Source: Candidatus Bathyarchaeota archaeon
Lineage (GTDB): Archaea > Thermoproteota > Bathyarchaeia > Bathyarchaeales > Bathycorpusculaceae
Direction of reading: 5' to 3'
DNA: 64,000 nt
Assembly: GCA_029881805.1 (NCBI GenBank)
Contig: JAOULW010000002.1
Span: 186,001-250,000, forward strand
Positions 4,301 to 22,103 of this stretch are shown here, piece by piece. The first letter of the stretch is position 1. The number at the start of each line of letters is the position of its first letter. Under the pieces are notes generated by a model, which saw only the letters and a program-made list of their open reading frames with translations, made no database searches and was not told where the DNA came from. The position numbers and the translations under genes were made by a program.

Positions 4301-5215
4301 CTAATATTTTTCCAGCAATTTTAGCAGTGTCGCTTTTGCTGAACAGAGTCTATTTTTGCTTTGCTCATATATAACTGACTTTGGGCTTTCGATAGCATCT
4401 GCACTTATCTCGTATCCTCTGTGAATGGGCATATCATGCATTACGTAGGCGTTACTTTCTTTCACTAGCTCGTTGTTTATCTGGTATGGCATCATGAGTT
4501 TGATGCGCTTCTCTTTTTCTGCATCGAATTTTGAGTCTTGGAAGAATTCCATGTCGATCCACGTGTCTGTGTAGACGAAGTCTGCGTATTGCACTGCTTT
4601 TCTAATGTCCAAAGTGGTTTCCCATAGTCCAGTTTTCTTGGCGTTTTCCAGTAATTCGTTGTCTCGGCTTGGCTCATTAAAGATTGGTGTCACAGTTGTT
4701 ATTTTCACACCACTTTTTGTACAGCCTTCAACCAGCGAATTGCAGACATTGTTATGTATACCTATGTAAACTAGCTTCACGCTTTCTAGTGTGCCTTTCT
4801 TCTCCTTCATGGTTATTAGGTCTGCTATTGCTTGGCTTGGATGGTATTTTTCATCGCATCCATTGATTACTGGAACACGGGAAGCCTTAGCCATAGATTG
4901 CAAATCAACATTTTTGATCAATCGCGCCATTATGCAGTCAACATTACGCGACAAATACTGTGTTTCGTCTGATATGTCTGCTAAAGCGAAGTTTGTCGTC
5001 CTCCAGTCTATGTAAAGAGCGTGACCGCCAAGCTGGGTCATTGCTACTTCAAACGCGACTCTTGTTCTCGTAGAGGTTTTCTGAAAAATCATGGCTAAAG
5101 ATTTGCTGTCCAAAATGGTTCGATATTTTTCTGGATTATGCTTAATGTCAATGCCTTTGTCAATTATCTCCATAAGTTGTTGACCGGATAAGTCTTTGAA
5201 ATTAATTAGGTGCAT
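4301..5215 (-). CDS. Ornithine carbamoyltransferase-like protein (divergent substrate motifs)
   Basis: A 304-residue transcarbamylase fold. The carbamoyl-phosphate site is intact: S48-T-R-T-R52 and HPSQ at 125-128. The motifs that fix the amino-acid substrate in ornithine carbamoyltransferase are altered. The usual HCLP is HDMP (260-263), the SMG loop is replaced by DTWIDME (217-223), and HPCQ is HPSQ. The family is certain. Ornithine as acceptor is not, so I give no argF symbol. No other arginine genes are nearby; the only companion is a small downstream ORF. It lies on the minus strand, inserted between the ftsY and secE clusters. Confidence 0.85.
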   Translation of the reverse strand: MHLINFKDLSGQQLMEIIDKGIDIKHNPEKYRTILDSKSLAMIFQKTSTRTRVAFEVAMTQLGGHALYIDWRTTNFALADISDETQYLSRNVDCIMARLIKNVDLQSMAKASRVPVINGCDEKYHPSQAIADLITMKEKKGTLESVKLVYIGIHNNVCNSLVEGCTKSGVKITTVTPIFNEPSRDNELLENAKKTGLWETTLDIRKAVQYADFVYTDTWIDMEFFQDSKFDAEKEKRIKLMMPYQINNELVKESNAYVMHDMPIHRGYEISADAIESPKSVIYEQSKNRLCSAKATLLKLLEKY

Positions 5216-18331: not shown

Positions 18332-18418
18332 ACCACCAAATTTGTTATTTATGACTACTTATTATTTCTAGTAAGCCATAAAGTCTTTAAAGCATGCACA
18401 CAAGAAAGGCTGAGCAAA

Positions 18419-20181
18419 ATGAATGGCGAAGCTAAATCACCCGATAAGTTCACAATAATTAACGAGCTAGCCCGTAGACGAGGCTTCTTTTGGCAGTCAT
18501 ACGAGATATATGGTGGAGTAAGCGGCTTCGTAACCTACGGTTCTCTAGGTGCTAAGTTAAAGCAGAATATTGAAAGGAAACTCCGAGAGCTTTTCGTGCA
18601 CAAGCTTGGAATTTTAGAAATAGAGTCACCTGTGATCACCCCAGCAAGGTTTTTGAAGCCTCAGGCCACGTTAGCCATTTCAAGGAACCTATGGTTGAAT
18701 GTCTGAAATGTAGGAAAAAATTTCGCGCAGATCATCTACTACAAGAACGTGCAAAGATCAGCGAATCGGAAGCTGAAAAGCTACGCCTAAAAGAACTTAC
18801 AAAGGCAATTGAAAAGTATGATATACACTGTCCAGAATGCGGCGGCACTTTCGGCGAACCAAAACACTTCTTGACTATGTTTAAAACTACAATAGGCCCA
18901 CATTCGGGGGCAATTGGCTACGGAAGACCTGAGGCCGCACAAGGGATATTCGTAGAGTTTAAGCGCCTGTACGAGATGGCTCGGGAAAAACTTCCCTTCG
19001 GTGTTATGCAAGTAGGTCATGCCTTGCGGAATGAGATTTCCCCGAGACAAGGTCTGATAAGACTGAGAGAGTTTACCATAATCGATTTGGAATTCTTCTT
19101 CGACCCTGATGAACCGAACTGTTTTCTCTTGGAAGATCTTGAAAATGAAACCCTGCGACTTCTACTGGCTGAAAACAAGCTAAAAAGTTCAGAGGACATC
19201 ACTGAAGTCCTTGTAAAAGAGGCATTAGAAAACGGCTACATTAAGGCTGAGTGGCAAGCCGTTTTCATGGCTTTAGCTAAGAAATTATTGATCGAGTTGG
19301 GTGTCCCTGCTGAAAGGCAGCGCTTCATAGAGAAACTTCCGTGGGAAAGGGCCCACTATTCACTTCAAAGCTTTGATCAAGAGGTTTATCTTGAGCGCTG
19401 GGGCTGGGTTGAAGTTTCCGGACACGCCTATAGAACAGATTATGATTTAAGAAGTCACATGAAATCCAGTGGCGTGGACATGAGTATTTTCAAGGAATAT
19501 GAAAAGCCAGTCGAGAAAGATCAAGTTTTTATAAAACCTGTTATGGCCAAGCTTGGACCAACATTTAAAGGCGAAGGAACGAAGGTTGCGGAGATGATTT
19601 TGAAGGCTAATCCTGAAGAAGTTGCAGATTCCCTGAAGAAACGAGGGCATTTTGTTATTGGGAAGTACAAGCTTCTACCAGAACACATAACAATAGATCA
19701 TAAGAAGGTTGTTGAACGTGGAAAGCATTTCATTCCTCACGTTATTGAGCCAAGTTTTGGTTCTGATAGGCTTGTTCAAGTGGCTCTTGAATATGCCTAC
19801 CGTACTAAGGGCGAAAGGGCTCTGCTAAGCTTTCCTCAGGATATCGCACCTATTCAGGCGGGCGTTTATCCTCTAGTGAGTAAGGATGGGTTGCCCGAGA
19901 AGGCATCGGAAGTGTATAAGATGATGCTTGATGAGGGTTTTGTCGTTGAGTATGATGAGGCAGGTTCTATTGGCAGGCGATACGCTCGTGCAGACGAGGT
20001 CGGCGTGCCTTTAGGCATAACGGTGGATTATGAGACTCTAAGCGAAAAAACAGTGACTATTCGCGATCGTGACTCATGGAAGCAGGTTAGAACCCGAATT
20101 GGAGATTTACCAGCACTTCTGCGCAACTATTTTAGAGGGAAAACTAGTTTTGAGGATTTGGGCAAGCCATTCGAAAGATGA
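18419..20181 (+). CDS. glyS: Glycyl-tRNA synthetase, interrupted by a frameshift
   Basis: Class II synthetase that charges tRNA-Gly. The first frame (from ATG 18419) carries FFWQSYEIYGGVSGFVTYG and GILEIESPVITPA, then goes out of register at about 18647-18654. One frame over, the sequence continues as VFEASGHVSHFKEPMVECLK, which is exactly what GlyRS should read, and runs to 20181 with motif 2 (VMQVGHALRNEISPRQGLIR) and motif 3 (LSFPQDIAPIQAGVYPL). One base is missing near the GGTTTTTG run. The total is about 587 residues, full length. An ATG at 18691 would give a 496-residue product lacking motif 1. Confidence 0.93.
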
Positions 20182-21629: not shown

Positions 21630-22103
21630 CTACCGTTGGCTCCTAATAATTTCGTACAATTCCTCCTCTAGAGTGGGTGTATGCGTAGGATTTTCAGTTA
21701 TCCTCCCGATCTCTTTTCCTTCGCTGTTAAAGATTAGGATTAGAGGAATTTTATCAACATTGAATGTTTCCACTTCCGGTGGGGATGGAGGAATTCTCCA
21801 CTTTCTTTTCGGATTCAACGAGTCTTTCTTTAAGCCCGCAAAGATTCTAACCTCAAAACCCGTTGCTTCAGATATCAAAGCCAAGACCGGAATGTTTGCT
21901 GTACAATCCTTACATCATTCTGCTGAAAACGCAACTATTACATATCTGTTAGCGAGCTTTTTGAGTTCACTTATTGTCTCTCGTCTCAGCTGGTATGTTT
22001 GTTTTCTTGTTACGAACTTCTCTCGAAATGGTTCTTTCAAGGCGTTTATGTGTTGAGTTACTGGAGTCGTTTTTCTTATAATTTCTAACAAATTAACGAT
22101 CAT
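21630..22103 (-). pseudogene. Thioredoxin-fold protein interrupted by in-frame TGA
   Basis: One continuous frame of 157 codons, except for TGA at codon 63 (21915-21917). Upstream it ends RYVIVAFSAE. Downstream it starts CKDCTANIPVLALISEATGF and goes on to PLILIFNSEGKEIGRI, the cis-Pro strand of a thioredoxin fold. The TGA falls exactly where thioredoxin-like proteins have Trp before CxxC (AEWCxxC), so TGG-to-TGA is the simplest reading. It may be a nonsense mutation, an assembly error or recoding. The ATG at 22103 lies three bases after the nucleotidyltransferase stop. Confidence 0.7.

Follow-up and report, generated by a model that had tools for sequence, protein, structure and literature searches.

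How should an in-frame TGA lying directly before the redox centre of a thioredoxin-fold gene be read in an archaeal genome? The gene in question is found in a window of 64,000 nucleotides, the whole stretch of DNA analyzed (contig C24:186001-250000), from a Bathyarchaeial genome (G000; 2.2 Mb in 39 contigs, completeness 100, contamination 2.63). An initial annotation of the window had listed nonsense mutation, sequencing error, read-through by tRNA-Trp and selenocysteine (Sec) as possible readings of this codon. Here each is weighed against the homologues, the translation machinery and the state of other genes in the genomes concerned.

A TGA codon beside the redox motif

The features of the locus, in window coordinates, are:

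21630..22103, minus strand: Thioredoxin_9 (PF14595) gene, 157 codons followed by TAG, with an internal TGA at codon 63
21915..21917, minus strand: the in-frame TGA, codon 63, at the site of the otherwise invariant Trp63
21903..21914, minus strand: CKDC redox motif (TGT AAG GAT TGT), codons 64-67, directly 3' of the TGA
21915..22103, minus strand: 62-residue product without CxxC, expected on UGA termination
21630..21884, minus strand: open frame after the TGA from the first start codon, a TTG 10 codons downstream; CxxC not included

Translation of the minus strand across 21630-22103 gives a single internal stop (...VIVAFSAE*CKDCTANIPVLA..., the asterisk marking the stop) and ends in TAG, bearing out the initial description of a frame intact over 157 codons apart from a TGA immediately 5' of CKDC. 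Read through the TGA, the product matches PF14595 over residues 22-143 (46.7 bits against a cut-off of 25 in the profile search), and the match extends to both sides of the codon 63 stop. The residues C64, K65, D66 and C67 are invariant across homologues (alignment A1). Re-initiation past the TGA would not rescue the redox centre, as the first downstream start codon lies beyond CxxC. The upstream neighbor on the same strand is a nucleotidyl transferase, while the other flank holds a gene read as a tRNA-splicing endonuclease, a PhoU-like gene and glyS; this gene neighborhood is conserved among relatives.

Homologues were sought in 151 relatives, 163 genomes of the order, 257 of the class and the genome contig collection. 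The gene was detected in 59 of the 257 class genomes at E<=1e-10. Codon 63 is TGG (AEWCKDC) in every homologue read, about 20 genomes, with the sole exception of G025 (isolate Yes71-20, JASEJA010000002.1), which has TGA at exactly codon 63. The comparison with relatives thus confirmed that TGA (21917-21915) replaces the Trp before CxxC and at the same time showed that the stop is present in more than one species. A second conserved Trp, at codon 102, is encoded by TGG in both G000 and G025. For more distant homologues the output of the class search (257 genomes) lists no internal stop. G025 belongs to a different genus from G000, the two proteins are 64% identical, and synonymous divergence has reached or nearly reached saturation. 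In the public record, a masked run of N (L029, about 4830-4940) lies a short way 5' of the G025 gene.

The G025 assembly is independent of that of G000, and its contig name gives a coverage of 38. The same TGA in this second assembly makes a plain sequencing error less likely, and as the sole cause such an error, one of the readings first proposed, is unlikely. Even so, the contig is not flawless. About 3 kb from the thioredoxin gene, glyS (glycyl-tRNA synthetase; window 18407-20181, plus strand) lacks 1 nt near 18640-18650 when compared with G034, which splits a gene that is otherwise intact. The gene is normally essential, and the ~817 kb of G000 sampled showed no further copy; the deletion is probably an assembly error or a strain variant. 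However, glyS has suffered an indel, whereas codon 63 differs from TGG by a substitution. Taken together, a sequencing or assembly error or a minority strain in the window, with TGG as the true codon, appears improbable.

Decoding of UGA in the carrier genomes

Insertion of Sec at the UGA would create a Sec-Cys-x-x-Cys centre, an idea that draws on the TGA adjoining a redox-active CxxC in two genomes. Neither G000 nor G025 was found by profile search to encode SepSecS (best score 16.5 bits against a cut-off of 224.85, from a decarboxylase-like protein) or SelA (best 25.8 against 267.9). No locus in either genome scored above the cut-off for tRNA-Sec (RF01852), the best being ordinary tRNAs (Cys, Ser, Arg, Leu and others). 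For SelD the best score was 82.7 bits against 125, and the three top-matching proteins are better matched by HypE or ThiL. A search with Rfam gave no SECIS hit close to either copy of the gene, although archaeal SECIS elements are perhaps not covered by an Rfam model. In addition, the residue replaced is Trp, not Cys. Given that SepSecS, SelA and tRNA-Sec were not found and that the SelD-like proteins resemble HypE or ThiL, a selenoprotein is very unlikely here; the searches for SelA and tRNA-Sec, which the initial annotation had suggested, spoke against the Sec-Cys pair it had considered. A Cys-to-TGA change in an acetyltransferase of G025 (L212:7250-7600; Cys in the G000 copy) resembles a Sec site at first glance but was rejected as a second selenoprotein, for the frame decays soon after the TGA.

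In G000, UGA terminates 80 of 276 sampled long ORFs (~29%), and it is therefore an ordinary stop codon; in G025 it ends 19 of 68. Known reassignments of UGA to Trp use either a suppressor tRNA(UCA) or a tRNA-Trp(CCA) with a 4-bp anticodon stem (PMC13092985). No UCA anticodon was present among the G000 tRNAs read, some of which were assigned by eye as introns defeat ARAGORN. The tRNA-Trp genes bear introns and have the anticodon CCA, with an anticodon stem of 5 bp (ACGGG/CCCGT). The stem has 5 bp in both genomes, which sets aside a short-stemmed tRNA-Trp, and with UGA an ordinary stop, a UCA tRNA not found and a normal tRNA-Trp stem, a genome-wide reading of UGA as Trp was likewise rejected.

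The G000 genome encodes two tRNA-Trp(CCA) genes (L150:1494-1665 and L152:359-530), while other matching genomes have one clear copy. Both apparently contain two introns, one in the anticodon loop and one in the variable region. The second gene (L152) is at a contig end and has a GC content of 0.477 compared to ~0.42-0.45, so it could be foreign.

Read-through by tRNA-Trp survives as a local reading and is the main rival to nonsense mutation. Under this scenario, tRNA-Trp(CCA) would read the UGA as a near-cognate codon often enough to supply sufficient full-length WCKDC protein, and the change from TGG to TGA would be tolerated or would tune expression. The residue lost, Trp, is the one that leaky reading of UGA would put back, and the two tRNA-Trp(CCA) genes of G000 fit with this. 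In the clear tRNA-Trp genes of 33 family and order genomes, position 11 is T and position 24 is A (our own numbering); A24 is the base of the UGA-reading E. coli Hirsh mutant (G24A) (PMC13092985) and may also favor read-through here. The T11-A24 pair would permit UGA reading, but it leaves the case unexplained because the TGG-carrying relatives read share it; as the specific cause it is weakened, being unable to explain why two genomes differ. The 5-bp anticodon stem is unlike that of the 4-bp UGA readers (PMC13092985), and a stimulatory stem-loop 3' of the UGA can be dismissed, since the folds there are unexceptional (z -1.2 and -0.8). In our view local read-through is a possible but doubtful account, one that also has to contend with the absence of other Trp-to-TGA changes in the sampled parts of these genomes, described below.

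Age, origin and genomic context of the stop

Constraint after the stop was assessed on the 28 residues 3' of it at which the 16 TGG homologues compared all agree. G000 retains all 28 and G025 alters two, both conservatively, so the observation that the frame shows no decay holds 3' of the stop. In simulations of neutral decay, the absence of change in G000 becomes improbable by ~0.05 substitutions per site (P = 0.039), and two changes or fewer in G025 at ~0.1 substitutions per site (P = 0.067). Since constraint was kept 3' of the TGA in both carriers, each stop is either recent or tolerated, and the present data are compatible with both. The constraint in both carriers counts for read-through. 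The hallmarks of a pseudogene are absent, with one lesion per carrier and no excess change at conserved sites, a state that a very young pseudogene would match.

Whether the two stops share an origin bears on the same choice. In the gene tree, one clade holds both G000 and G025, yet they do not pair as sisters there (bootstrap 0%; 0-2% across all tree runs). Forcing them together gave an AU p of 0.038 for the thioredoxin gene, 0.082 for three neighboring genes alone and 0.217 for the concatenated alignment of all four genes. Based on these values and on the carriers not being sisters, two origins of the TGA are preferred over one origin with reversions, and the identical codon in G025 is most likely, we infer, an independent hit. 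Depending on a transition bias of 1-8, the chance that a second independent stop would strike the same codon by the same change is 1.2-5.8%. This low figure, like the recurrence in two genera that would suit read-through, is suggestive rather than conclusive, particularly as G025 came from searching many relatives. An ancestral, site-specific UGA in one Bathyarchaeia clade, decoded as Trp with no suppressor tRNA involved and either retained or acquired anew in two genera, seems unlikely. Were a single older origin true, the gene would have been kept functional with a UGA codon across near-saturated synonymous divergence.

To place the stop in context, stretches of the two genomes (~817 kb in G000, ~440 kb in G025) were set against each other and against loci of relatives. 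Best-frame homologous alignment covered ~177 kb of each genome and 548 (G000) and 558 (G025) conserved Trp codons; beyond codon 63, no Trp-to-TGA change inside a real gene was seen among them. The lack of a further case in ~1100 aligned Trp codons counts against read-through. Apart from the broken genes named here, the remaining stops lie, by our reading, at gene edges, in RNA genes or in antisense frames.

Several genes are nonetheless broken. Besides the decayed acetyltransferase, G025 has an MFS transporter (L117:6482-7600) with in-frame TGA and TAG opposite Ser/Ala and Lys; apart from these stops it shares ~60% identity with a G100 homologue whose frame is intact, and the copy in G052 is broken as well. 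In G000, an in-frame TAA precedes the region of strongest domain match in a GNAT acetyltransferase (L105:4860-5354), and no start codon lies close by on its 3' side. The thioredoxin gene itself is damaged in other relatives. The copy in G023 (L021:1480-1980) is a pseudogene in which ATG has become ATA, a TAG interrupts the frame and 2 nt are missing just 5' of the TGG of WCxxC. The G100 copy has a frameshift, and the G245 copy matches as two separate pieces, which we take for a frameshift. A codon-usage scan of moderate sensitivity over ~643 kb of G000 was used to look for further read-through genes; the candidates tested against Pfam were adjacent genes, genes with downstream starts or broken genes, and several others were judged by eye to be antisense or low-complexity frames. 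Nonsense mutation is accordingly frequent enough in G000 and G025 to be the default reading, and no general tolerance of Trp-to-TGA change is visible.

Given the above, the TGA is probably a recent TGG-to-TGA nonsense mutation in a dispensable thioredoxin-fold gene. The gene is taken as dispensable because it was detected in so few of the class genomes, and many Bathyarchaeia lack it or have it broken. Under this scenario, codon 63 would have changed only recently and UGA termination would yield the 62-residue fragment without CxxC, so that we are probably dealing with a pseudogene of recent date or a polymorphism among strains; the remainder of the frame would still be intact because little time has elapsed. 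We infer both termination at this UGA and the recency of the stop, rather than observing them directly, and the weights given to the competing readings are a matter of judgement, not computation.

Of the readings first proposed, nonsense mutation is favored by the other broken genes and copies, the absence of further Trp-to-TGA changes, the lack of dedicated machinery and the dispensability of the gene, and the carriers not being recovered as sisters also counts for it. Weighing against it are the same codon and the same base in two genera, with the low chance of such a repeat; the 28 residues kept in G000, which limit neutral divergence since the stop to ~0.05 substitutions per site; and the single older origin that the concatenated alignment does not reject. 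If the TGA is a nonsense mutation, as is likelier, it cautions that a TGA beside CxxC is no evidence of a selenoprotein and that one matching sister genome is no proof of function, because stops can recur by chance.

Comparison with known families and recoding systems

The protein resembles the PF14595 Thioredoxin_9 family in its domain match over most of its length, its CKDC motif and its conserved gene neighborhood. It differs in that the codon before CxxC, which encodes Trp in other Bathyarchaeial members, is UGA in G000 and G025. With archaeal selenoproteins, known from methanogens and Asgard archaea (PMC9723677, PMC8211752), the locus shares an in-frame UGA beside a redox motif in an archaeal gene; in contrast to them, no Sec machinery was found in either genome and it is Trp that is replaced. 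The systems in which UGA is reassigned to Trp (PMC13092985) are similar in the change of a Trp codon from TGG to TGA, but here UGA is a normal stop, no tRNA(UCA) was found and the tRNA-Trp stem has 5 bp instead of 4.

A parallel in form is offered by the orthologous in-frame stops reported in bacterial genes whose frames are under purifying selection (Belinky et al. 2021, PMC7918605), a class already known in bacteria and one that lends some support to read-through. As in those cases, a single internal stop occupies the same codon in related species, within a frame that shows constraint. The bacterial cases are mostly between very close sequences, however, whereas here protein identity between the carriers is 64% and synonymous sites are nearly saturated, and the organism is an archaeon. 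If the UGA were read as Trp in these Bathyarchaeia, it would represent natural archaeal read-through outside selenocysteine and pyrrolysine. Going by a review of archaeal recoding that names only those two amino acids for stop-codon read-through (PMC8211752), a demonstrated case would be new for archaea.
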